A DNA stretch of 41,144 bases from an uncultured Burkholderiales bacterium (lineage in GTDB: Bacteria; Pseudomonadota; Gammaproteobacteria; Burkholderiales; Burkholderiaceae_C): contig CAIJIT010000167.1 of assembly GCA_903820745.1 (NCBI GenBank), positions 1-41,144 on the forward strand, written 5' to 3'. The stretch's first letter is position 1, and each line of letters starts with the position of its first letter. Made by a program: the position numbers and the translations under genes. The notes under the pieces were generated by a model, which worked only from the letters and a program-made list of their open reading frames with translations, made no database searches and was not told where the DNA came from. Positions 4,333 through 15,645 of this stretch are shown piece by piece.

Positions 4333-4554
4333 TCAGCCCAGCGGCGGAGCACCGCCTTGCCACACCCCTTGACGGCGCGAGGCTGCACGTTTTTCTCGGC
4401 CACGCTCCCCCGCTATCTCTCGCGCGAACAGTGCAAATGAAGTTAGCAGGTTCAGCGTCAAGCGTCCCAGCGGGCCTGAGGTGTCAATCGACTGCGTCGC
4501 CGATACCTCATCCGCCAATTGGGACGACCCGAGATTCGCAGCCTTAGTGGTCTT
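4333..4554 (-). pseudogene. Serine recombinase (resolvase) fragment
   Basis: The minus strand encodes about 60-70 residues matching the end of the catalytic domain of serine recombinases: SIDTSGPLGRLTLNLLTSFA, then FAREIAGERGREK and a final GGAPPLG. Family members normally have F or Y variants of the same pattern followed by a large C-terminal domain. Both the catalytic-serine N-terminus and the C-terminal domain are absent. It is a relic of an integrase or resolvase. Confidence 0.75.
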
Positions 4555-4577
4555 ATGAAAGATGGGTTCGCGGAACG

Positions 4578-4800
4578 CTTACGGAACGCGAGCGCTTTGC
4601 GCAGCTGATCGGCCACGCGCTAAAGACCGCAGGCAGCCAGCACAACTTGCTGGCCGACACCGGCATGGAAGTCCTGCGCCAGGCCTCCAAGGGACTGCTC
4701 CGTCAGGCCGGGCGAGTCCTGAACACGGTCATGCGCCTGGCCATGCCCAAGGGCTTGAACCACCTGCCCGACGAGATCTTGCCGGTAGCCCGAGTCGGCA
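4578..4800 (+). pseudogene. Fragment of a transposition-associated AAA ATPase (ExeA/TniB-like)
   Basis: In the plus-strand frame ending near 4800 I read LTERERFAQLIGHALKTAG, then LADTGMEVLRQASKGL, RQAGRVLNTVMRLAM and GLNHLPDEIL. This is the C-terminal part of ATPases that partner transposases (ExeA-like, IstB/TniB type). The Walker motifs and the upstream half are missing, and the reading frame decays after DEIL. Confidence 0.6.
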
Positions 4801-4813
4801 AAGACAGAGCCGT

Positions 4814-4890
4814 GTCCTCAAGCGATTTGACTACCCCCAACTGGCCAAAGCCGAGCGCGGCGTGGTGCTGGCCTATGTTCGATTTTCAGT
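4814..4890 (+). pseudogene. Possible N-terminal fragment of another transposase
   Basis: The plus strand encodes LKRFDYPQLAKAERGVVLAY. This resembles the N-terminus of some IS integrase/transposase proteins (FDYPQLPRAERGVVL-type). It is only about 25 codons long and runs into the 3' end of the lyase gene on the other strand. Confidence 0.35.
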
Positions 4891-6790
4891 CTTCGCCGAT
4901 CACGTACTGACGCTCATCGGCGACCCGCCGAAGCTGGTCCACCGTGTTCCCCGTCAGCTCAGCGATAAACGAGAGCGGGACCTGCATGCCGTTGTCTTCT
5001 GCAGACTTCCGGATGCGCAGCGCGTTCAGCGGCGAGGTCTGGAAGTGCCGGCGGATCTCCGGGCCGATCTGATCAAGCCCGCGCGAGTACATGTCTCCTG
5101 ACTTGAGGCGCAACCAAGCTTGCGAATATTCGGTTCCATCGCAATCCGCCACCACGTTGACGACGGCGGGCTTGCCGGACTCAAGGGCACGCTTCATTGC
5201 GGGCTGAAGGTCCTCGGCGCGTTCCACGTACTCGCCATGGGCTCCCAGCGCTTGGAAAGCTTGGTCCCAGCGGTTGTTCCTTCCCACCGACCAGTCAATG
5301 TTCGGGTGGATGTCATCGCCCTGGAGAGAATTGCCCCCCCAGGAACTGTTATTCAAAACGACCACGATGCACGGCAGCTTATTGTGGATCATGGTCTCGA
5401 TGTCAGGGCCCGAGATCCCGATCCCCCCATCGCCGACCAGTGTGACGACCTGCTTGCCCGGGCGCGCCACAGCGGCTCCGATCGACATGCCGACGCCTTG
5501 GCCGAGGGCGACACGCGGCCCGGCATCCAGGATCTGGCCGGCAAACCTCGCACGCAGCGCGTCGGTCAAATACAGGGAACCTGAATAGGAGTCGTAGATC
5601 ACGGATGCGTCCTGGTCCACGACGTTTGCGAGGATGTCCGTGAGTTCGTACGTGTGAATGGGCTGCGCATTTCGATACTTCTCGAGCAGCTTGGCTCGCT
5701 TCGCGATCGATTGTTCCTTCACCGAACGCAACTTCTGCATCCATTCGGTGCGGTCCGCCGGTTTGCCCGGTACCTTCTGGCACAGGGTGAGCAACTGCTC
5801 GAGGACAAGCCTGCTCGAGCCAACGACCATCTCCTTGGTGGGGAGGGCGTACCACAGCTCACTGCCCGTCTCATTGATCTGGACGTAGGTGACTTTGCCA
5901 CGCGGCCAGTCAGGCGCTTCGAACCATGATTCCAGTTCGCCAGCGCGCATGCCGACGAGAAGTACCAAGTCTGCATCTGCAAGGATGTGACCGCGCGCCG
6001 AGGCTGGCAGACCCAGCGGATGGTCCTCCGAGACTGCTCCCCGAGCGGTCCGCCGAGTATTCACGGGGATGTTCAGTTCGGTCGCTAGCGCAAGCAGAGC
6101 GTCGCTACCGCGCGTCCAGTAGACGCCGTCGCCGGCAACGATCAATGGTCGCTTGGAGGCAGTCAAGAGTTCGGCGATTCTGATCAGCGCTGCGGGGTCA
6201 CCTGCGCTTTCGGGCATCCTGGGTTGACCTTGCGCAGCGAGGTACTTGCGCTGGGGCTGAGGACCAAAGCGCCACTGGTTGTTCAGCGGGATTTCGAGGC
6301 ATACAGGCCCCGGGGGATATGCACAGGTGTCACGCAATGCCTTCTGCGTCCAGTAGGAGTTCATCTCCCAGTCTGTTAAGCGCTTCGTCCACTTCGTGAC
6401 CGTCTTGAAGCATTCCGCCGCATAGCCTTCCTGGAGAACTTCCAGTCCGTCACCGGCAGTTCCGTGCTGGCCGACCAGGAGGAGCATGGGGCTGAGGGCG
6501 CCGATGCCCTGCGACAGCGGCGCCAAGTAGTTCGACATGCCGCCGGACGAAGACGCATAACAGACGCCTGTCTTCTGGGTTATTCGTCCGTACGCATCGG
6601 CGGCGAAGCCTGCGGATTGCTCGTGCCTGAAGTGAATATTGTTCACTCCGAGGCGGCAAGCTTCTTCGAGTACATTGTTGATGTACCCGTGAATGCCGAA
6701 CATATGCGTGACGCCGTTCTCGAGCAGCGTGCGCGCAACCGCAGTACCCCCTGTAAGCCTCACACCCGAATCACTTTGCATGTCTTCCAT
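4886..6790 (-). CDS. ThDP-dependent lyase/decarboxylase-like enzyme
   Basis: A 634-residue thiamine-diphosphate enzyme of the acetolactate synthase/2-hydroxyacyl-CoA lyase superfamily. The N-terminal PYR domain carries the conserved glutamate in HEQSAGFAADAYGR (about residues 56-69). The C-terminal PP domain has GDG about 27 residues before NN (LVGDGGIGISG through VVLNNSSWGG), the ThDP/Mg binding motif. The ETM...LP...NN arrangement is closer to oxalyl-CoA decarboxylase and 2-hydroxyacyl-CoA lyases than to ALS. About 80 residues follow the PP domain, an extension absent from many relatives. The ATG has a GAGG sequence 7 bases upstream. The gene diverges from a TetR regulator and shares an operator type with the acyl-CoA ligase operon. 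Cleavage of a CoA-activated 2-hydroxy acid is my inference; the substrate is unknown. Confidence 0.85.
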   Translation of the reverse strand: MEDMQSDSGVRLTGGTAVARTLLENGVTHMFGIHGYINNVLEEACRLGVNNIHFRHEQSAGFAADAYGRITQKTGVCYASSSGGMSNYLAPLSQGIGALSPMLLLVGQHGTAGDGLEVLQEGYAAECFKTVTKWTKRLTDWEMNSYWTQKALRDTCAYPPGPVCLEIPLNNQWRFGPQPQRKYLAAQGQPRMPESAGDPAALIRIAELLTASKRPLIVAGDGVYWTRGSDALLALATELNIPVNTRRTARGAVSEDHPLGLPASARGHILADADLVLLVGMRAGELESWFEAPDWPRGKVTYVQINETGSELWYALPTKEMVVGSSRLVLEQLLTLCQKVPGKPADRTEWMQKLRSVKEQSIAKRAKLLEKYRNAQPIHTYELTDILANVVDQDASVIYDSYSGSLYLTDALRARFAGQILDAGPRVALGQGVGMSIGAAVARPGKQVVTLVGDGGIGISGPDIETMIHNKLPCIVVVLNNSSWGGNSLQGDDIHPNIDWSVGRNNRWDQAFQALGAHGEYVERAEDLQPAMKRALESGKPAVVNVVADCDGTEYSQAWLRLKSGDMYSRGLDQIGPEIRRHFQTSPLNALRIRKSAEDNGMQVPLSFIAELTGNTVDQLRRVADERQYVIGED

Positions 6791-6834
6791 CTTTCGTCCT
6801 CACGAAAAAGTTGCGCAACTCGCCACACGCACAA

Positions 6835-6850
6835 CATAACATTAGTTATG
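6835..6850. promoter_or_regulatory. TetR operator, copy 1 (CATAACATTAGTTATG)
   Basis: A perfect 6-bp inverted repeat, CATAAC-ATTA-GTTATG, in the divergent region between the lyase and tetR. It lies just downstream of the predicted lyase -10 element and 45 bases upstream of the lyase ATG. The same arms and spacer length recur at 14544-14559 before the acyl-CoA ligase. A bound repressor here would block the lyase promoter. Confidence 0.75.
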
Positions 6851-6851
6851 C

Positions 6852-6880
6852 AGATTAAAGCGTCTTTCTTCCTAAGTCAA
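6852..6880 (-). promoter_or_regulatory. Candidate sigma-70 promoter of the ThDP enzyme gene
   Basis: Reading the minus strand, TTGACT (6880-6875) is followed 17 bases later by TAATCT (6857-6852). The -35 is good and the -10 is weak. The operator palindrome starts two bases after the -10, a typical repressible layout. Confidence 0.5.
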
Positions 6881-6958
6881 GTAAAAAACTAGGATTTTTG
6901 TGAACAAGCGTTATGATCGTTCTACAAGACCCGATTTGCTGGGCTGCACAACAGAACC

Positions 6959-7618
6959 ATGACCGAACAAGATCTTCGTGAAGTCCTCCTTAGAGCCACT
7001 GCGCGTCTGTTCGAACGGAGGGGCTACGCTGCAGTCACCCTTCGGATGATCGCGGCCGAGGCGGGCGTGACTACGGGCAGCCTTTATTACTACTTTAAAG
7101 ACAAGGAAGAGGTTGTCCGCGTCATTCTCGAGACCGGCCATCGTCGGGTGTACGAGGAGGTACTTCGCGCAATCACCGATCTGGGCGAGTCTGCGACATG
7201 GGCAGAGAAAGTTCGTGCCGGTGTTCACGCGCACGTCGCCACGCTGTTCGAGCGTGGTAGCTTCTCTGCAGCCAACATCCGGATCTACTCCCACGTACCC
7301 GAACACCTTCGCGAAGAGGCGAAACCTGCCCGCAGAGCCTATGAACGGTTCTGGATCGACCTTCTCGCGAGTGGCGATTCACCTTTGGATGTGCCTGCCC
7401 GCCATATGGCCATGTTTCTGTTTGGTGCCGCTAACTGGACTTTCGAATGGCATCGTGAAGGGCGAGAGACGTTGGACGAGATCGCTAGCGATTTGGCAAG
7501 GCTGTTCATCGGCCCGGAGCCGCAGAACACCAAGGCCTTCGAGGCAACGTCGCCGACGCGAACGAAGATTACGGCCAGGCCGCAAAATCAGCCTAGCCAG
7601 CGCTTACGCCTGCGGTAG
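6959..7618 (+). CDS. TetR-family transcriptional regulator
   Basis: A 219-residue regulator. Residues about 6-55 form the TetR DNA-binding domain (ATARLFERRGYAAVTLRMIA, GVTTGSLYYYFKDKEEV). The rest is a helical ligand-binding domain of TetR_C type. It is transcribed away from the ThDP enzyme gene and toward livF, with which its 3' end overlaps tail-to-tail by 31 bases. Its position and the two identical-type palindromes point to it as the repressor of both the lyase and the ligase/transporter operon, released by the substrate or its CoA ester. A half-site GTTATG at 6911-6916 might add autoregulation. Confidence 0.9.
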   Translation: MTEQDLREVLLRATARLFERRGYAAVTLRMIAAEAGVTTGSLYYYFKDKEEVVRVILETGHRRVYEEVLRAITDLGESATWAEKVRAGVHAHVATLFERGSFSAANIRIYSHVPEHLREEAKPARRAYERFWIDLLASGDSPLDVPARHMAMFLFGAANWTFEWHREGRETLDEIASDLARLFIGPEPQNTKAFEATSPTRTKITARPQNQPSQRLRLR

Positions 7619-8400
7619 TGCTTCACATCCTTGAAGCTCTGCCGGTCGGATCCGGACAGGCCTAAGTAGAACTCCGACACGTCTTCGTTCTCCCGCAGCT
7701 GCTTTGCAGACCCTTCGAGAACGACGCGACCTGATTCGAGCACGTAACCTCGATGCGCATAGCGTAGCGCTAGGTTTGTATTTTGTTCTGCAACCAAGAA
7801 GGTTACGCCGGCGCTCTCGTTGAGTTGATGCACGAGTTCGAAGATTTCCTGAACGACGCGCGGTGCGAGTCCCATGGAGGGCTCATCCAGGAGGATGACA
7901 TCGGGCGTCGCCATCAGGGCTCGACCAATCGCACACATCTGCTGCTCACCGCCCGAGGTATATCCGGCTTGTGAGCGTCGCCTCTCCTTCAACCGCGGAA
8001 AGTATTCGTAAACGCGCTCGAGGTTGGCCTGGATGTCTGTACCGTGTCTGCGTACGAACGCGCCTGCGAGCAGGTTCTCCTCAATCGTCAGGTGGCCAAA
8101 GCAGTGTCGACCCTCCAAGACTTGGATGCAACCGGATTTCACAAGCTCGGTCGGCTCCAACCCGCGAATGTCGCGGCCGTGAACCGCGATGCGTCCGCGA
8201 GTGACGTCTCCACGCTCCGACGCAAGAAGGCCAGAGATGCTCTTGAGTGTCGTGGACTTTCCCGAACCATTTGCGCCGAGTAGAGCAACGATCTCACCGC
8301 GGCGAACCTGAAGGGATACGCCTTTGATCACGAGGATCACATGGTCATAAATGACCTCAATGTTCTCGACGTCTACAAGCGCAGGGGCAGCATCATTCAT
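7588..8400 (-). CDS. livF: Branched-chain amino-acid-type ABC transporter ATPase (LivF)
   Basis: One of the two ATPases of a HAAT-family importer, which takes up branched-chain amino acids, amides or aromatic/organic acids. From the chosen ATG at 8400 the protein has about 270 residues: Walker A GANGSGKST, signature SGGEQQM, Walker B VILLDEP, then a switch His region. The frame stays open further upstream, but that part would overlap the binding-protein gene, so the ATG after GGGGGC is preferred. It is the last gene of the ligase/transporter operon and ends with a basic tail (YRRRKRW) after YLG. It overlaps tetR at the 3' ends. Confidence 0.88.
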   Translation of the reverse strand: MNDAAPALVDVENIEVIYDHVILVIKGVSLQVRRGEIVALLGANGSGKSTTLKSISGLLASERGDVTRGRIAVHGRDIRGLEPTELVKSGCIQVLEGRHCFGHLTIEENLLAGAFVRRHGTDIQANLERVYEYFPRLKERRRSQAGYTSGGEQQMCAIGRALMATPDVILLDEPSMGLAPRVVQEIFELVHQLNESAGVTFLVAEQNTNLALRYAHRGYVLESGRVVLEGSAKQLRENEDVSEFYLGLSGSDRQSFKDVKHYRRRKRWLG

Positions 8401-8422
8401 GATGCCCCCAACGTGAGTTGTA

Positions 8423-9736
8423 TCAGCGGCAGTCACCGGGTGTGATTCCTTTTTCTTTGGCAAACGCCGCCGCCGATTTTTCAATCATTGGCCTTACGGA
8501 GCTTTGGTCCGAAGCGACCCACGATCCAATCGACACCCACTTTGCGCCATCCCACTGGGTGAAACGAATGGCCGCACCGCCTTCATGGTCAAGACAAGAG
8601 GTCTTGAACGTCGGCATCATGTCAGTCGCGCCAAGTTGCATGAGCCGCTCCGGCGTGAAGTTCAGGTGCTCCAATCCGTAGCTCATCTGCTCGCCGGTTA
8701 TGCGCTTGCCCTTCCCGTAGTGCTCCTGCGCAACCCGTATGCCTTCCATCAAGATGATGCCCTGCATCAGGCCGCGGATGTATCGAACACTTCCGACGTC
8801 CTCCCGTGGCCCGGCGCCCTTGCCCTTGGCGTACACGTGTTTGAGGACGTCCTGAACGACGGCGTACTGGGTGCCAGATCCATGGAGAGCGGCAGCGATA
8901 TAGCCCTTCGCAGAGTTGCCGGCCGGAATCGTATCCTCTTCGGCGCCGCTCCAGTAGTTACCGACAATCTTCTCGCGCGGAAACGCGATGCCGGCAGCTT
9001 CCTTGAGTGCGTTTTGGGTGACCAGTCCGGCCCCCTGCAGGATGATCCAGTCGGGATGGTATTGCCGAATCTGAAGCCACACGGCCTTCTGATCAATCCC
9101 GGGCGGCGTCACCGGCATGTGCTTGATCTCGAAGCCTTTCGCTTCGGCTTGCTGCGTGAGCACCGGGATGGTTTCCTTGCCGTATGCCGAGTCGTGATAA
9201 AGATTGACAATCTTCTTGCCCTTGAGCGAACCGCCGTCGCGGCTCTCGATGAACTTCACGATCGACGTTTCCTGGCTCCAAAAGTTTGACACCAGCGGGA
9301 AGCCATAAGGAAAGACCCGACCGTCCGAAGCGTCGGTTCGGCCGTTTCCGATCATCACCACAGGAACCTTGTCCGCCGTGGCCTTGTCTAGAATTGCGTA
9401 TGAAAGCCCCGTTCCGTACGGCAGCCACGCTGTAGCCCCGCCGTTTTTGTTCTTCAGTCGTTCGTAGCACTCGACCATACGGTCGGGCTGGTACGCGGTT
9501 TCGCACTCTTCCCAAGTGAGCTTCACGCCGTTGATACCCCCATCTCGTTCGTTGAGCAGTGTCATGTAGTCCATGTACGCGACCATAGGTGGTGTACCGA
9601 ATCCGGCCATCGCTCCGGTACGGTAGACGGTGACAGGCATAAACTGCCCCACCGCCTGCGCAGATGCGGTTGATGCTGCGGCGAGCGCTAATGCTGCCAA
9701 AAGAGTGTGGCGTACGCGTGTCTTCAAAGTGGCCAT
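8423..9736 (-). CDS. Periplasmic substrate-binding protein of the Liv-type transporter
   Basis: A type I periplasmic binding protein (Peripla_BP family) of about 437 residues. The ATG at 9736 has GGAGA 9 bases upstream and begins a classic signal peptide (basic start, LLAALALAAAS, cleavage after ASA). The mature protein starts QAVGQFMPVTVYRTGAMAGF. It would capture the substrate outside the inner membrane and hand it to LivH/LivM. The family covers amino acids and aromatic or aliphatic acids, and the sequence alone does not show the ligand. The companion CoA ligase suggests a carboxylic acid. Confidence 0.88.
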   Translation of the reverse strand: MATLKTRVRHTLLAALALAAASTASAQAVGQFMPVTVYRTGAMAGFGTPPMVAYMDYMTLLNERDGGINGVKLTWEECETAYQPDRMVECYERLKNKNGGATAWLPYGTGLSYAILDKATADKVPVVMIGNGRTDASDGRVFPYGFPLVSNFWSQETSIVKFIESRDGGSLKGKKIVNLYHDSAYGKETIPVLTQQAEAKGFEIKHMPVTPPGIDQKAVWLQIRQYHPDWIILQGAGLVTQNALKEAAGIAFPREKIVGNYWSGAEEDTIPAGNSAKGYIAAALHGSGTQYAVVQDVLKHVYAKGKGAGPREDVGSVRYIRGLMQGIILMEGIRVAQEHYGKGKRITGEQMSYGLEHLNFTPERLMQLGATDMMPTFKTSCLDHEGGAAIRFTQWDGAKWVSIGSWVASDQSSVRPMIEKSAAAFAKEKGITPGDCR

Positions 9737-9774
9737 GACGGAAATCTCCATGTGGTTGGGTGAGGAAAGGGGTA

Positions 9775-10836
9775 TCAATAGGGAAAGGGCCAGATCCGCA
9801 TTTTTTCGCGCAGATTCAGACCGATACGTGCAAGCCCATGCGGCTCAAAAATCAGAATACCTAGCATCGCCCCGCCGTAGATCAGCAGCTGGATGTGGCT
9901 CACAAGGTCTGCTTGAAAAGCGCGCCCGATCGTTGCAAAGGTGGCGCTAAGAAAGATCGGCAAGAACACGATGAATGCGGCGCCCAGGAAAGGGCCCAGG
10001 ATGGTGCCAAGTCCGCCAATGATCACCATGAAAAGGACCTGGAATGAACGGTTCAGGTCGAACGCTTGGGTCTCCACGGTACCAATGTAGAAGAAGACCC
10101 AGAGCGCACCGGCGAGGCCGCAGAAGAACGAGCTCACCGCAAAGGCGCTCAACTTGGCGCGCATCGGACTTACCCCGATACTTTCAGCGGCGATGTCCAT
10201 ATCGCGGATGGCCATCCACGACCTACCTGTTGCCGAACGAGCAAGGTTCTTCGCGGCAATGGCAGCGATAAGGGTAATCACATACAGCAGCAGAAATCTG
10301 GACTGCGGGGTCACGAAGTCGTACCCGAACATGTGCAGTTGCGGAGCACTGATCACGCCTGTACTGCTGTTGCCCGAGAACCAGTTCACGCGCTGGAAAA
10401 GCCACTCCACAAAGAACTGCAGAGCAAGAGTTGCAACCGCGAGATAGAAGCCTTTGATGCGCAGTGAAGGCACTCCGAACACGATCCCTGCAACGGCTGC
10501 GATGCCTCCGGCAAGCACAAAGCACACGAGTTGATTGAGCTCAGGCAGACGCGTGCAGAGGTTGTACGCCGCGAATGCCCCAATCGCCATGAACCCGCCC
10601 GTGCCCAGGGAAAGCTGTCCTGCGTAACCAACCAAAATGTTCAGCCCCAGGGCAGCGACTGAAAACACCATGAATGGAATAAGGATCGACACGATCCAGT
10701 ATTCGGAAAGGGCAAAAGGCAGCAATGCACCGGCCGCCGCGAGTGCGATCACCGCCCAGCGATCTTGCTCGACGCGGAAGATGGCGTGATCGGCCCGATA
10801 GGAGCTGATGACACGTCCTGAGTCGCGGTAGTACAT
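9775..10836 (-). CDS. livM: Branched-chain amino-acid-type ABC transporter permease (LivM)
   Basis: A 353-residue integral membrane permease with about 8-10 hydrophobic segments and the LivM-type motif LGLNILVGYAGQLSLG near residue 65. The C-terminal part contains the EAA-like loop (ESIGVSPMRAKLSAF) that docks on the ATPase, and GGLGTILGPFLGA. It pairs with LivH to form the membrane channel. It lies 3 bases after livH and 38 before the binding-protein start, in one operon. Confidence 0.9.
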   Translation of the reverse strand: MYYRDSGRVISSYRADHAIFRVEQDRWAVIALAAAGALLPFALSEYWIVSILIPFMVFSVAALGLNILVGYAGQLSLGTGGFMAIGAFAAYNLCTRLPELNQLVCFVLAGGIAAVAGIVFGVPSLRIKGFYLAVATLALQFFVEWLFQRVNWFSGNSSTGVISAPQLHMFGYDFVTPQSRFLLLYVITLIAAIAAKNLARSATGRSWMAIRDMDIAAESIGVSPMRAKLSAFAVSSFFCGLAGALWVFFYIGTVETQAFDLNRSFQVLFMVIIGGLGTILGPFLGAAFIVFLPIFLSATFATIGRAFQADLVSHIQLLIYGGAMLGILIFEPHGLARIGLNLREKMRIWPFPY

Positions 10837-10839
10837 CGT

Positions 10840-11751
10840 CTAAACCCTCTCAATGATTTTTTCGCCAAGTAGTCCCTGCGGTCGAAAGACCAGGAACACC
10901 AGGGCAAGTGCGTAGGCGAACCAGTTCTCCAGCGCCCCCCCCACATAAGGGCCGAGGTAGACCTCAGCCAACTTCTCGCCGGCCCCGACGATCAGCCCGC
11001 CAAGCACCGCTCCCGGTATCGACGTAAATCCGCCCAGAATCAGGACGGGAAGCGCCTTGAGCGCCAGCACGGACAGTGCAGGTTGGACACCTAGCTTCGC
11101 TCCCCACACCAATCCGGCGAACAGTGCAACGATGCCGGCGACGGCCCAAACCACGATCCACATCTGCTTGAGGGAAATACCGATCGACAGAGCGGCTTGG
11201 TGGTCGTCGCCGACGGCTCTCAGCGCACGTCCGAGGTGACTTCGTCGGAAGAAGATTCCAAGCGCGGTGACGACGGCGAAGGCGATCCCGACGGCGACCA
11301 TGTCGAGTTTGCGAATTAACATACCCCAGACCTCGACGGGTTCATCCGATACGCCGATATCCAGCATTGTCGGTCTCGATCCCCACAGCATCAAAGTGAA
11401 TCCATCGAGGAGGAAAGTGAGCGCAATCGTCGCCATGAACAGAGTTATCTGCGGCTGGTTGACGAGCGGCCGCAGGACAAAGCGCTCTACGACGAACGCG
11501 AGCAAAATCATGATGGCCGTCGTGATCGCAAAAGAGGCGAGAAATCCAAAGTCGCCCGGAGATTTACTACCCAAAGCTGCAGCTACCCCCACAAACGTCT
11601 GGGCTGCGAAGAGAACCATCACGCCTTGCGCGAAGTTGAAGACGCCCGAAGCCTTGTATATCAAGACAAACCCCAAGGCGACCAATGCGTAGAGAGTTCC
11701 CGAGGTCAGCCCTGCCACGAGTACCTCGATGAAGAACAGGAGGTCCGTCAT
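10840..11751 (-). CDS. livH: Branched-chain amino-acid-type ABC transporter permease (LivH)
   Basis: A 303-residue membrane permease beginning with a LivH-type N-terminus (GLTSGTLYALVALGFVLIY, then GVFNFAQG). It has about eight hydrophobic segments, a cytoplasmic coupling loop (GRALRAVGDDHQAALSIGIS) and the usual GGFTSIPGAVLGG region. Its start overlaps the livG stop by 4 bases, which indicates translational coupling. It forms the permease heterodimer with LivM. Confidence 0.9.
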   Translation of the reverse strand: MTDLLFFIEVLVAGLTSGTLYALVALGFVLIYKASGVFNFAQGVMVLFAAQTFVGVAAALGSKSPGDFGFLASFAITTAIMILLAFVVERFVLRPLVNQPQITLFMATIALTFLLDGFTLMLWGSRPTMLDIGVSDEPVEVWGMLIRKLDMVAVGIAFAVVTALGIFFRRSHLGRALRAVGDDHQAALSIGISLKQMWIVVWAVAGIVALFAGLVWGAKLGVQPALSVLALKALPVLILGGFTSIPGAVLGGLIVGAGEKLAEVYLGPYVGGALENWFAYALALVFLVFRPQGLLGEKIIERV

Positions 11752-12545
11752 GCGTGCTCCTGCCCAAGATATGCGTCGATCACAGCCTGATTTCCTTTGA
11801 CTTCGTCGGGGGTACCGTCAGCAATCTTTCGCCCGTATTCAAGAACCACAACTCGGTCGCTGATATCCATTACGACGCTCATGTCGTGTTCGATGAGCAC
11901 GATCGTGGTCCCCAGTTCCCTATTCACGTCGAGAATGAAGCGACACATGTCCTGTTTCTCTTCAAGGTTCATGCCCGCCATGGGTTCATCGAGGAGCAAA
12001 ATGCGCGGCTCGAGGGCCAGCGCTCGTCCGAGCTCGACGCGCTTCTGCAAACCGTAGGGCAGGCGACCGACTGGAACGCGTCGAATGTGTTCAATCTCGA
12101 GAAAGTCGATGATCTCCTCGACCTTCTCGCGATGCTGCAGCTCTTCGCGCACCGCGCGCCCCCAGAAGAGGGCATGTTCAAAAATTCCTGTTCGCGTCTT
12201 GATCAACCTGCCGCTCATGATGTTGTCAAGCGTGCTCATACCCTTGAACAGGGCGATATTCTGAAAAGTTCTTGCGATCCCGGCGCGGGCAGCATCGACC
12301 GGTCGCATGCTTTTGCGTTGTTCGCCGAACACGAAAATGGCACCCTGCGTGGGCTTGTAAAACCCATTCAGAATGTTGAGCGCCGAACTCTTCCCCGCAC
12401 CGTTGGGGCCGATAAGCGCCCGGATTTCACGGTCTCGGACGTCAAAGGAAACGCCGTTCAATGCCTGCACCCCGCCAAACTTCAACGAGACGTTCTCCAG
12501 TGCAAGCAGCACTTGGGCGTCCTCGGATCGCCTTGACGTATTCAT
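11748..12545 (-). CDS. livG: Branched-chain amino-acid-type ABC transporter ATPase (LivG)
   Basis: The second ATPase of the importer, 265 residues. Walker A is GPNGAGKS, the LivG-specific GIARTFQN follows, then the signature-like LPYGLQKRVELGRAL and Walker B ILLLDEPMAGM, with H-loop IEHD. The signature lacks the standard LSGGQ and reads LPYGLQ, a common LivG variant. The start overlaps the ligase stop by 4 bases. Confidence 0.9.
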   Translation of the reverse strand: MNTSRRSEDAQVLLALENVSLKFGGVQALNGVSFDVRDREIRALIGPNGAGKSSALNILNGFYKPTQGAIFVFGEQRKSMRPVDAARAGIARTFQNIALFKGMSTLDNIMSGRLIKTRTGIFEHALFWGRAVREELQHREKVEEIIDFLEIEHIRRVPVGRLPYGLQKRVELGRALALEPRILLLDEPMAGMNLEEKQDMCRFILDVNRELGTTIVLIEHDMSVVMDISDRVVVLEYGRKIADGTPDEVKGNQAVIDAYLGQEHA

Positions 12546-14503
12546 AACGCGACCTGGGTGAGCTGCGTCGGTACATCATCGATGCGGACCACTGCCTTGA
12601 TCGATAGCGTCCTGCCGTCTTCCAGAGTCGCAACGATATCGACAGCGGCCTCCGAGACATCGCTGTACAACGCGTCGATAAGGGGTGCGTAGCGGTCCGC
12701 GATCACCCGCCGCCTGAGTTTTCCCGTTCGAGTCAGTTCGCCATCGTCCGCATCGAGCTCCTTGTTCAAAATGAGGAATTTGTGGATTTGGGATGCTGCT
12801 AGGGATGGTTCATCGGCCAGTTGCCGGTTGACTCGTGAGACGGCGTCGCGCACCAGTTCGTACACTTGTGGCAGCGCCGCCAGTTGTGCATAGCTGGTGT
12901 AGGCAATCCCGTTGCGCTCTGCCCAATTGCCGACGGAATCCAGTTCTATATTGATGAACGCAACGACGCCGTCTCGTCCTGCCCCGAATGCAACAGCCTC
13001 TTTGATGTGTGGCGAGAATTTCAAGCGGTTCTCGATGTACTTGGGCGCGAAGATCTCTCCTGAAGCGAGGCGACCGACGTCTTTGGCACGGTCTATGATC
13101 TTGATGTGGCCATCATTCGTGAAAAGGCCCGCGTCGCCGGAATGCACCCACCCGTCCAGCGTTTTGACCTTTTGGGTCTCTTCATCCGATGCGTAATAGC
13201 CACTGAAGACACCGGGGCTGCGGTATAGCAGTTCCCCGCTTTCGTCAATTTTTACTTCGACAAGTGGCGCCGGCGGACCCACCGTATCGGAGCGGACATC
13301 GCCATTACGATGAACGCAGACATAGACGCTCGACTCGGTCTGGCCATATACCTGCTTGAGGTTGACGCCCAGCGATCGATAGAAGTCGAAGATTTCAGGG
13401 CCAAGCGCTTCACCTGCGGTGTACGCCACTTTCAGGCGTCGTAGACCCAAGGAATTCTTTAGGGGCGAATAAAGCAGCAAGCCGCCCAGCGCGTACCCAA
13501 ATCGCGCGAAGGCTGGAACCCGCTTGCCGTCCAATACGTCCCGACCATACATCCTGGCAAGCTTCATGAAGAAGTCAAAAAAACGATGCTTCAAGCCCGC
13601 GCTGCTTTGCATGCGGATGTGAATATCGGTGAGGATGGATTCGAAGATTCTGGGTGGTGCGAAGAGGTAGGTGGGTCCGGCTTCTCGCAGATCTGCCATT
13701 ACAGTGTCTTGACTCTCGGGGAAGCACACCGTGAAGCCAACCACGCTCGCTTGAACGTGCGAATAGAAATGGTCTCCCACCCAAGCCATCGGCAGGTAGG
13801 CGAGCATCGTGTCCTGCGTCGTGAGTCCTTCGAGCTGCGCCGTCGCGCTTGCGATGCTGAGCATGTTGGCGTGCGTGAGCACAACCCCCTTCGGCCTGCC
13901 AGTTGTCCCAGACGTGTAGCAGATGACGCATAGGTCCGCAGAGGTGCCACTCGCAATTAGATGTTCCGCTTGAGAAGTCAGGGCGGCAACGTTGTCGCGG
14001 CGTGTGCCCGTCAGCGATGCAAAGCTCACGATGCCTCCGCTGACATCGTCCCTTAAGCCCTTGGATTCGATGTAAACGATGCAGCGCAAGGCGGGCAAGC
14101 GGCTGCGCAGCGACAGCAACTTATCGACTTGCTCCTGGTCCTCGGCAAACACGACTTCTATGTCCGCCTCCAAGAGCGGGGGCAGGAGCTCATCGGAAGA
14201 CGCGTCGTTGTAAAGCGGTACCGGGACTGCACGGATGAACTGCGTAGCGTGCACTGCCATGTACAGCTCGGGGCGATTCCTGCCAATCACGCCGACTCGC
14301 GCACCTGGCTGTATGTCAAGCGCCAATAGTCCTCTCGCAACTGCAAGAGTCGTTTCCCTGACCTGGGCCCACGTGTAGGTTCTCCAGATGCCAAACCTTT
14401 TCTCCCGCATGCACACGCCGTCCGGCCGCATGCGGGCATGGCGCATTACGTGCTGCGGAACTGTCATCGCGTCGTTATTCGCGGTGATATGTGGAGAGGG
14501 CAT
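12542..14503 (-). CDS. AMP-forming acyl-CoA ligase (long-chain/FadD15-like)
   Basis: A 653-residue ANL-superfamily enzyme that activates a carboxylic acid to acyl-AMP and then acyl-CoA. The P-loop motif CYTSGTTGRPKGVVLTHAN lies near residue 195. Further on are YGQTESS, GWVHSGDAG and the hinge/A8 region IIDRAKDVGRLASGE, and near the C-terminus TRTGKLRRRV with the catalytic-type lysine. The length and lid match the long-chain/FadD15-like subgroup often found with Liv transporters in Burkholderiales, whose true substrates are often aromatic or branched acids. It is first in the operon and has operator copy 2 41 bases upstream. No clear Shine-Dalgarno was found, and ATG 14467 is an alternative start. 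Confidence 0.88.
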   Translation of the reverse strand: MPSPHITANNDAMTVPQHVMRHARMRPDGVCMREKRFGIWRTYTWAQVRETTLAVARGLLALDIQPGARVGVIGRNRPELYMAVHATQFIRAVPVPLYNDASSDELLPPLLEADIEVVFAEDQEQVDKLLSLRSRLPALRCIVYIESKGLRDDVSGGIVSFASLTGTRRDNVAALTSQAEHLIASGTSADLCVICYTSGTTGRPKGVVLTHANMLSIASATAQLEGLTTQDTMLAYLPMAWVGDHFYSHVQASVVGFTVCFPESQDTVMADLREAGPTYLFAPPRIFESILTDIHIRMQSSAGLKHRFFDFFMKLARMYGRDVLDGKRVPAFARFGYALGGLLLYSPLKNSLGLRRLKVAYTAGEALGPEIFDFYRSLGVNLKQVYGQTESSVYVCVHRNGDVRSDTVGPPAPLVEVKIDESGELLYRSPGVFSGYYASDEETQKVKTLDGWVHSGDAGLFTNDGHIKIIDRAKDVGRLASGEIFAPKYIENRLKFSPHIKEAVAFGAGRDGVVAFINIELDSVGNWAERNGIAYTSYAQLAALPQVYELVRDAVSRVNRQLADEPSLAASQIHKFLILNKELDADDGELTRTGKLRRRVIADRYAPLIDALYSDVSEAAVDIVATLEDGRTLSIKAVVRIDDVPTQLTQVAL

Positions 14504-14543
14504 GAAGGCGTGTCTCGTAAGTAGATTTTCTAGGTTGTTTGCA

Positions 14544-14559
14544 CATAACCTGTGTTATG
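14544..14559. promoter_or_regulatory. TetR operator, copy 2 (CATAACCTGTGTTATG)
   Basis: A perfect inverted repeat with the same arms and the same 4-bp spacing as 6835-6850; the arms extend to 7 bp (ACATAAC/GTTATGT). It lies 41 bases upstream of the ligase ATG. A -35-like TTGACC (14586-14581, minus strand) is 21 bases from the palindrome, close to the 24-base distance at copy 1, although the -10 is poor. Both promoters thus have similar geometry. Confidence 0.75.
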
Positions 14560-14606
14560 TTGGTATTTGATCTGGTTGGCGGTCAATCGTCACTAGGGGT
14601 AAACCC

Positions 14607-14717
14607 ATGCGACCCACCGTCCAGCACTCCTTCGCGGTGGAGGCACTCGGCGGTGCGGTAGCCGAAGCGTTTGCACCCAAGCCCAAGGTGACCACCAAGG
14701 CTGCGGCCAAGGCCTAG
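14607..14717 (+). CDS. Possible 36-residue small protein
   Basis: A short frame with an AGGGG sequence 8 bases before the ATG. It encodes a small protein ending in a basic alanine/lysine-rich tail (TTKAAAKA). It is 25 bases upstream of the GIY-YIG-like gene and on the same strand, so the two could be co-expressed. No family is recognised, and it may be chance or a leader peptide. Confidence 0.25.
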   Translation: MRPTVQHSFAVEALGGAVAEAFAPKPKVTTKAAAKA

Positions 14718-14742
14718 CCAGAGTCCTAGTCCACAATTCCCC

Positions 14743-15063
14743 ATGCGCGCAAAGCACCACGTCTACGTTGTCGAGTTGTCCAAGGACGTTTTGTATGAAG
14801 TCAAGTTCATCAAGTCCAACCCGGGCTATGTGACGGGCAAGCCCTGTGTGTATGTGGGAATGACCGGGCTGGACCCGGACCTGCGCTTTGACAGCCACAA
14901 GGCGGGCATCCGGGCCAACAAGTACGTCACCCGCTATGGCCTGCGTTTGATGACCGAGCTGTTTGAGCACCTCAACCCCATGCCCTATGGTGACGCGCAG
15001 TACATGGAGGTGGACTTGGGCATCCGCCTTCGGGTGCAGGGCTATGGGGTCTGGCAGGCCTGA
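14743..15063 (+). CDS. GIY-YIG nuclease-like small protein
   Basis: A 106-residue protein whose pattern resembles the GIY-YIG fold: VYVVEL near the N-terminus, then CVYVGMTGLDPDLRFDSH (the YIG-like strand followed by the Arg region) and a late E in MEVDLGIRLR. GIY-YIG domains cut DNA in repair enzymes, homing endonucleases and restriction enzymes. The first strand is less canonical than GIY, so activity is uncertain. No extra DNA-binding domain is present. It stands alone between the catabolic module and toxin-antitoxin debris. Confidence 0.55.
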   Translation: MRAKHHVYVVELSKDVLYEVKFIKSNPGYVTGKPCVYVGMTGLDPDLRFDSHKAGIRANKYVTRYGLRLMTELFEHLNPMPYGDAQYMEVDLGIRLRVQGYGVWQA

Positions 15064-15138
15064 CGCCGCCAATTGCACCGTAATCGCGTTTTAACTCACG
15101 CTAAATCGAGGCATAACCGGCGTAAAAGTGGGGTATTG

Positions 15139-15155
15139 TGCCTAATTTATAGGCA
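15139..15155. promoter_or_regulatory. Palindrome TGCCTA-ATTTA-TAGGCA
   Basis: A perfect 6-bp inverted repeat with a 5-base AT-rich spacer, followed by GTTTT. It lies between the GIY-YIG-like gene and the MNT gene and could be a weak terminator or an operator for the downstream toxin-antitoxin genes. Confidence 0.4.
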
Positions 15156-15273
15156 GTTTTGCAGACCTTGGCCAGACGGATGACAGGCATAGCGCGGATA
15201 CTGAATCGTGATTTTTTTGGGTGTTTCTGTCGTCGGCACAAGAAGTGCAGACCCTCAGCAACATTGGAGAAAA

Positions 15274-15645
15274 ATGTCCAAATACTGGTTCCCCAAAATG
15301 TTTAATAATCAGGCAATGAACGCCTCGCTAGCAAAGCAACTCCCAAGCATTGCCGCTTTATGCCAGCGCTATGGCGTTGCACATCTGGAGTTGTTCGGAT
15401 CGGCGACCTCTGCCGAGTTCAATCCTGAGTCGAGTGACTTTGATTTTCTGGTGGAGCTCGATAAGAGCAGTCCAGGATCGCCCGCCCGACGCTGGATTGA
15501 ACTGGCGGAGGCGCTGGAGAAATTGTTGGGGCGACACGTTGATCTGGTGAACCCGCATTACATCCGCAACCCTTATTTCGCACAGGCTGTAAACGCTAGC
15601 CGCACCGTCGTCTATGACCGACAAGTCACCCAAGCTGCTAGTTGA
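15274..15645 (+). CDS. MNT-type nucleotidyltransferase (MntA/HepT-system antitoxin)
   Basis: A 123-residue minimal nucleotidyltransferase. The active-site pattern GS-x-n-DxD is present as LFGSATSAEF, then SSDFDFLVEL, plus a third acidic region in GRHVDLVN. In HepT/MNT modules this protein AMPylates and so neutralises the HepT toxin. The ATG at 15274 is preferred because GGAG lies just upstream; an ATG at 15298 is possible. Its 3' end overlaps the start of a truncated hepT. Confidence 0.8.
   Translation: MSKYWFPKMFNNQAMNASLAKQLPSIAALCQRYGVAHLELFGSATSAEFNPESSDFDFLVELDKSSPGSPARRWIELAEALEKLLGRHVDLVNPHYIRNPYFAQAVNASRTVVYDRQVTQAAS

Follow-up and report, generated by a model that had tools for sequence, protein, structure and literature searches.

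What could switch on together, in a single bacterium, a gene for a putative carbon-carbon bond-cleaving enzyme and a separately transcribed uptake operon? The question is raised by a stretch of 41,144 nucleotides, hereafter the window (contig CAIJIT010000167.1 of assembly GCA_903820745.1), from an uncultured Burkholderiales bacterium. It carries a module made of a gene for a thiamine diphosphate (ThDP)-dependent enzyme (positions 4886-6790, minus strand), a divergent tetR gene (6959-7618, plus strand) and a leftward six-gene operon (14503 to 7588) encoding an acyl-coenzyme A (acyl-CoA) ligase and a Liv-type ATP-binding cassette (ABC) transporter. The palindrome CATAAC-N4-GTTATG precedes both the ThDP gene and the operon. 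We consider it quite probable, on the basis of sequence comparison, that one TetR protein acts on these two operators and joins the module in one regulon.

An earlier note on this DNA had claimed that the palindrome occurs exactly twice in the window, 45 bp before the ThDP gene and 41 bp before the ligase operon, at similar distances from a -35 element. All of this was borne out, and both copies are exact. The putative operator O1 (CATAACATTAGTTATG, 6835-6850) sits in the intergenic region between the divergent ThDP (start 6790) and tetR genes, its last base being 109 bases upstream of the tetR start. The putative operator O2 (CATAACCTGTGTTATG, 14544-14559) lies ahead of the ligase/transporter operon (start 14503). 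The presumed -35 elements on the minus strand, TTGACT (6875-6880) for the ThDP promoter and TTGACC (14581-14586) for the operon promoter, end 24 and 21 bases before O1 and O2, respectively. TTGAC thus has its first base 30 bp upstream of O1 and 27 bp upstream of O2; this would place the operators at the presumed -10 element or directly downstream of it, a repressor-like position.

The whole genome (5.12 Mb in 357 contigs) was scanned for exact copies of the palindrome and for copies with one mismatch. Exact copies are found solely at O1 and O2. One mismatch adds two places (contigs C256 and C266) and the shorter form ATAAC-N4-GTTAT has one further copy (C284); these three near-matches all fall inside open reading frames and were set aside. 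At three mismatches the window shows no clear excess of the palindrome, with eight sites compared to a mean of 5.7 in shuffled sequences (at least eight in 22 of 100 shuffles). Duplicated 6+6 inverted repeats of any kind number two in the window, versus a mean of 1.3 in 60 shuffles. Since some duplicated repeat is to be expected by chance, the duplication is not significant by itself and the evidence must come from position and conservation; together with confinement to the module, these carry the case.

Conservation of the palindrome in orthologous loci, on which the earlier note had made its proposal depend, was examined starting from the ThDP protein. A scan of GTDB genome contigs returned three loci, one in Xanthobacter tagetidis (75% identity) and two in Amycolatopsis jejuensis. 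The plasmid collection added three relatives (56-58%), one from Rhodococcus erythropolis and two from Pseudonocardia records; in one of the latter, plasmid pBCI1-2 (L010 14938-16877), the annotation splits the relative into two neighbouring genes, as though it were broken. The whole module is present in X. tagetidis alone, where its arrangement differs (liv and ligase genes leftward, tetR and ThDP genes rightward). Identities over the aligned stretches are 75% for the ThDP enzyme, 70% for LivG, 68% for LivF, 67% for the substrate-binding protein, 57% for the ligase and 45% for TetR, and the TTGSLYY motif in the helix-turn-helix of TetR is identical.

In this sole orthologous module the core TAAC-N4-GTTA is kept before both the ThDP and the ligase gene and occurs exactly twice in 20.4 kb (L006): as CATAACAGTCGTTATT before the ThDP gene, with TTGAC starting 28 bp upstream, and as CCTAACAACCGTTATT in the ligase/tetR intergenic region, with TTGAC starting 33 bp upstream in the ligase direction. 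A third, poorer site with two mismatches (CCTAACAGGCGTTTTG) is present at L006 9755. Among palindromes with four-base arms and spacers of 0-12, TAAC-N4-GTTA is the only one common to all four 150-bp promoters. Not one of 2000 random quartets had any such palindrome kind in common, the pieces being drawn from anywhere, mostly from genes, and being GC-richer than promoters. TTGAC starts 27-33 bp upstream at all four sites facing ThDP and ligase genes, while the background frequency of TTGAC at 25-36 bp, a range picked after the sites had been seen, is 1.4% in the window and 0.9% in L006. In both species the operator upstream of tetR ends approximately 100-110 bp before that gene (the X. tagetidis start being taken as TTG 8974) and occupies a region common with the divergent partner gene. 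The core is absent from the actinobacterial ThDP loci L007-L010. X. tagetidis is described as a thiophene degrader; no link to the cluster was found, and a literature search pairing the lyase with Xanthobacter yielded nothing relevant among the papers listed. A paralogous Liv/ligase operon of the bacterium's own genome (C162, ligase 48%) was uninformative on the operator, with no relative of the module TetR in the 18 kb examined (E 1e-3).

The repressor can also be followed independently of the ThDP gene. With a profile of the window and X. tagetidis TetR proteins, 8 of 398 phylum genomes were matched, the own genome included, at nine places, and the eight other places were examined. Seventy plasmid records matched the profile at E 1e-12 and 16 of them were examined at one place each, giving a set of 24 loci of 13-20 kb. 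TAAC-N4-GTTA is found at 17 sites in 11 of these loci, where about two would be expected from base composition. The site is present in eight of the nine loci whose TetR scores at least 108 bits and in three of the remaining 15 (Fisher p 0.002, the cut having been chosen after the table was seen). Site-bearing loci are not independent, as L050-L053 represent one cluster kind and L054, L063 and L064 another; about six independent systems were counted. Genome G937 (7.3 Mb) has exactly three copies of TCTAAC-N4-GTTAGA, none farther than approximately 8 kb from its tetR. These sites (L042 2376, 5656 and 8598), each perfect, belong to a separate acyl-CoA catabolic cluster and stand between genes for carboxyltransferase, thiolase, acyl-CoA ligases and enoyl-CoA hydratases. 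The core precedes another operon of Liv and adenosine monophosphate (AMP)-forming ligase genes in Polaromonas JS666, and in four annotated plasmids it starts 38-42 bp before tetR itself. A tree of 26 TetR sequences pairs the protein of the window with that of X. tagetidis (support 0.88); elsewhere in the tree, loci with and without sites are intermixed.

Two further features of this set were observed. Similar ligase/Liv operons occur at L059, on a Roseovarius THAF8 plasmid, and at L065, on a Diaphorobacter HDW4B plasmid; they have as neighbours a weakly related TetR and genes for a B12-dependent acyl-CoA mutase, as if a mutase replaced the ThDP lyase. Some annotated TetR genes measure 1335-1359 bp (L054 8287-9621 and L064 8263-9621; L063 8368-9711 is of similar length); the genes of L054 and L064 each match the TetR query twice, in separate stretches, which probably reflects fused tandem TetR domains.

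The earlier proposal of one TetR regulon of uptake and cleavage is thus strengthened in its regulatory part by the conserved core and its co-occurrence with tetR. The 219-residue product of 6959-7618 is assigned to the TetR family of repressors by its predicted N-terminal helix-turn-helix (PF00440, 65.2 bits for a cut-off of 24; TetR_C_24, 51.8 bits for a cut-off of 26.4). TetR-type repressors bind as dimers. We infer that a dimer of this protein would bind both CATAAC-N4-GTTATG operators and, placed over the presumed -10 or immediately past it, would block the ThDP gene and the six-gene ligase/Liv operon. A carboxylic acid entering the cell would be converted to its CoA thioester by a low level of ligase. 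By analogy with MbdR, discussed below, the inducer is probably this thioester, which would release the repressor so that uptake, activation and carbon-carbon cleavage are induced together. As O1 lies upstream of tetR, the repressor probably regulates itself as well, a feature absent from the earlier note. A lone half-site GTTATG before tetR (6910-6915, plus strand), part of a three-mismatch palindrome at 6900-6915, is a possible weak autoregulation site; three mismatches are at chance level.

Several observations weigh against a single TetR regulon. An automatic sigma-70 scan of 4500-15300 returned no promoter, and because of this the promoters are placed by the TTGAC element and their -10 elements are presumptive. 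TTGAC is absent upstream of the degenerate sites (window 6900, L006 9755) and in the tetR-facing direction of both O1 and the X. tagetidis intergenic site. The ligase-side site of X. tagetidis is imperfect beyond the TAAC core, and the orthologue comparison consists of one second species. The ThDP gene was found in one genome of 399 and one of 274 (E 1e-100) and in one of 398 (E 1e-80), each time the own genome only; these samples overlap and few candidates were scored per genome. In the 24 TetR loci, seven control palindromes of the same letters occur 0, 7, 3, 2, 0, 0 and 8 times; base composition alone understates chance, because such palindromes reach up to 8. The exact site is missing from 13 of the 24 loci, the high-scoring L041 among them; these 13 may have their operators elsewhere or of another kind.

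Other explanations of the paired palindrome fare less well. It could be a coincidence or the result of a recent DNA duplication, devoid of regulatory meaning, as the chance expectation for a duplicated 6+6 inverted repeat (mean 1.3) would allow. Yet O1 and O2 differ in their spacers and flanks and so are not copies of one segment, and conservation of the core in X. tagetidis is unmatched in the 2000 random quartets, which makes this explanation hard to credit. The palindrome could otherwise be the site of a CRP/FNR-type regulator encoded elsewhere and responding to a nitrogen-oxide or oxygen signal. The sites of HcpR2 (GTAAC-N4-GTTAC) and NssR (TTAAC-N4-GTTAA) indeed have the same core and spacing (PMC1274295; this and the other published work cited below are taken from excerpts of the respective sources). 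A global regulator should, however, have sites genome-wide, beyond one module, and in the scan of the 5.12 Mb genome, which went as far as one mismatch, no exact site but the pair in the window lay clear of open reading frames. In X. tagetidis, moreover, the core accompanies the cognate tetR; tetR relatives have it nearby in 11 of 24 loci, and in the four plasmids it stands directly before tetR. Control by such a regulator is improbable, if a little less so than coincidence.

Regulation by TetR being the preferred reading, the reaction of the enzyme under its control is less certain, as its assignment to cleavage comes from distant similarity to carbon-carbon lyases. The ThDP enzyme (634 residues) is, from its Pfam domains and PDB relatives, a putative carbon-carbon lyase of the 2-hydroxyacyl-CoA lyase type. 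TPP_enzyme N, M and C domains cover residues 13-546 and about 80 residues extend past the last of them. 2-Hydroxyacyl-CoA lyases/synthases are the top PDB relatives in three queries (best match with the single sequence, 191 bits), several top entries carrying the name oxalyl-CoA decarboxylase, and benzaldehyde lyase comes next among the solved relatives. His34, Glu57 and Gln120 are invariant in four aligned sequences. Glu57, which lies in the motif RHEQ, is presumably the ThDP-activating Glu; with the three TPP domains, the predicted protein has the ThDP fold of such lyases. Gln120 aligns with the FQE Gln of lyases of the RuHACL group, an active-site residue corresponding to Q113 in RuHACL and Q128 in AcHACL (PMC8760513). 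The active site of AcHACL uses His44 besides Gln128 (PMC8760513), and His34 may match this His44, which is a guess. Lyases of this type have an acid/base Glu on the helix that follows the NN motif (E493 in AcHACL, E477 in RuHACL); acidic residues, among them the invariant Asp493, occur in the matching stretch of the ThDP enzyme, where the alignment is gapped and the position not fixed. An AlphaFold2 model of the enzyme made from three sequences had a mean predicted local distance difference test (pLDDT) score of 54.6 and was not used for a fold search. Most likely, the enzyme would split a 2-hydroxyacyl-CoA into a carbonyl compound and formyl-CoA. Two neighbouring genes elsewhere in the host genome pass the formyl-CoA transferase cut-off (TIGR03253; G000:C352:13163-16288); the host can therefore probably handle formyl-CoA, which is no proof of the route.

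The assignment of this reaction has its own difficulties. Among the NCBIfam matches listed (25 of 51), the enzyme falls under every curated cut-off (NF058623, 185 bits for a cut-off of 600). RuHACL-type lyases have Val at the position of His34, and no formyl-CoA or aldehyde enzyme was found among the module genes scanned. TetR could then bind O1 and O2 as proposed and the ThDP enzyme be a benzaldehyde-lyase-like acyloin lyase, or an acetolactate-synthase-like enzyme, with free-acid substrates; this reading departs from the preferred one on the enzyme alone. With a family profile, benzaldehyde lyase and formolase score 209 bits, close to the 230 bits of 2-hydroxyacyl-CoA lyases, and the best NCBIfam model among the matches listed is an acetolactate synthase, far under its cut-off. 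The proposed co-regulation with a CoA ligase, by contrast, favours action on a CoA thioester, and a Pseudonocardia relative of the ThDP gene also adjoins a PaaK-type AMP-ligase. Taken with the rank of 2-hydroxyacyl-CoA lyases as top relatives in all three queries, these points render a free-acid enzyme rather unlikely, although much less so than the two explanations discarded above.

The proposed circuit can be compared with known ones. The closest worked example is the MbdR regulon of Azoarcus sp. CIB, in which a TetR repressor controls 3-methylbenzoate catabolism with 3-methylbenzoyl-CoA as inducer (PMC4424350). There, as in the window, a TetR repressor is combined with an operon of a five-protein ABC transporter and a CoA ligase and with a separate catabolic unit (PMC4424350), and the transporter/ligase and catabolic units of the window have common putative operators, O1 and O2. 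MbdR has several operators overlapping promoters, also at its own gene, with the first CoA thioester acting as inducer (PMC4424350). Its operator, ATAC-N10-GTAT, differs from CATAAC-N4-GTTATG, and its catabolic unit serves an anaerobic aromatic pathway for which the available excerpt mentions no ThDP lyase (PMC4424350). In sequence, MbdR and the module TetR are only distantly related (4uds, E 1.8e-9). On the enzyme side, the module resembles the actinobacterial pair of AcHACL and HCL ligase acting on 2-hydroxyisobutyrate, in which ligase and ThDP lyase are sequential and substrate-induced (PMC7176365, PMC8760513). AcHACL also has a C-terminal stretch beyond the ThDP fold, besides the active-site Gln (PMC7176365, PMC8760513). 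It is nevertheless more distant from the ThDP enzyme than other lyases (146 bits with a single sequence, 171 with a profile) and so belongs to another family; the ligase of the window is FadD11-like, and no Liv transporter is described for the AcHACL cluster in the excerpts available (PMC7176365, PMC8760513).

Mycobacterial BkaR and KstR are likewise autoregulated TetR repressors of acyl-CoA/lipid catabolism with AAC/GTT half-sites (PMC3920632, PMC1995591). Compared with the module operator, the half-sites of the BkaR core GTTA-N-T-N4-A-N-TAAC are reversed in order, and the KstR core TnnAAC-N2-GTTnnA is also different (PMC3920632, PMC1995591). Pseudomonas AtuR/RdmA (acyclic terpene utilisation) provides another case of a TetR repressor, an acyl-CoA catabolic cluster and inverted-repeat promoter sites, but these sites (AGCAAGCGCTTGG/CCAAGCGCTTGCT) are unrelated to TAAC-N4-GTTA (PMC9973270). 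FadP and LiuQ are betaproteobacterial TetR regulators for which no operator motif is given in the excerpt (PMC5343134). TAAC-N4-GTTA as the site of a TetR protein was not found in the excerpts examined on acyl-CoA/aromatic TetR regulators, and a literature search for the palindrome itself led to a single paper, on CRP/FNR motifs.

The operon itself runs on the minus strand and its genes are separated by short gaps or overlap. The first gene encodes the AMP-forming acyl-CoA ligase, FadD11-like and with an AMP-binding_C_3 domain (12542-14503). It is followed by genes assigned by domain or family match to a LivG-type ATPase (11748-12545), a LivH-type permease (10840-11751) and a LivM-type permease (9775-10836). 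Next comes the periplasmic substrate-binding protein with a Peripla_BP_6 domain (8423-9778, the open reading frame starting at TTG 9778 with in-frame ATGs at 9751 and 9736) and last the LivF-type ATPase (7588-8484, from TTG 8484, with ATG 8400 as probable start). The ends of livF and tetR overlap tail to tail. F-type conjugation genes (TraG, TraH, TraN, TraU, TraC and TrbI) are found at 16853-39342, in a region also encoding a TraI_2 relaxase and a TraD-like coupling protein. The window belongs to a conjugative element and the catabolic module is probably mobile cargo next to its conjugation system, a status that fits the rarity of the module. At the left edge of the window, a gene encodes a Fic/DOC-domain protein (453 residues, 380-1741), and small genes beside it resemble toxin-antitoxin genes by eye.

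As regulation, this is an ordinary kind of circuit; its type is familiar, and it is the lyase family and the operator motif that appear little studied. It is quite possible, if somewhat short of probable, that the module represents an undescribed mobile route in which an acid, once taken up and activated with CoA, loses one carbon in the form of formyl-CoA. The shortening would fall to a new ThDP lyase family of proteobacteria and actinobacteria, under a repressor from a broad TetR subfamily reading TAAC-N4-GTTA. The motif supplies an operator, open to direct test, for a TetR subfamily found beside several acyl-CoA catabolic clusters; if the reading is true, it could help to predict regulons of acyl-CoA catabolism in many bacteria. 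Linking a little-studied ThDP family with one particular transporter and CoA ligase narrows the search for its substrate. 2-Hydroxyacyl-CoA lyases matter for one-carbon chemistry, and a new family of them whose induction switch is known would have uses both as an enzyme and as a biosensor.

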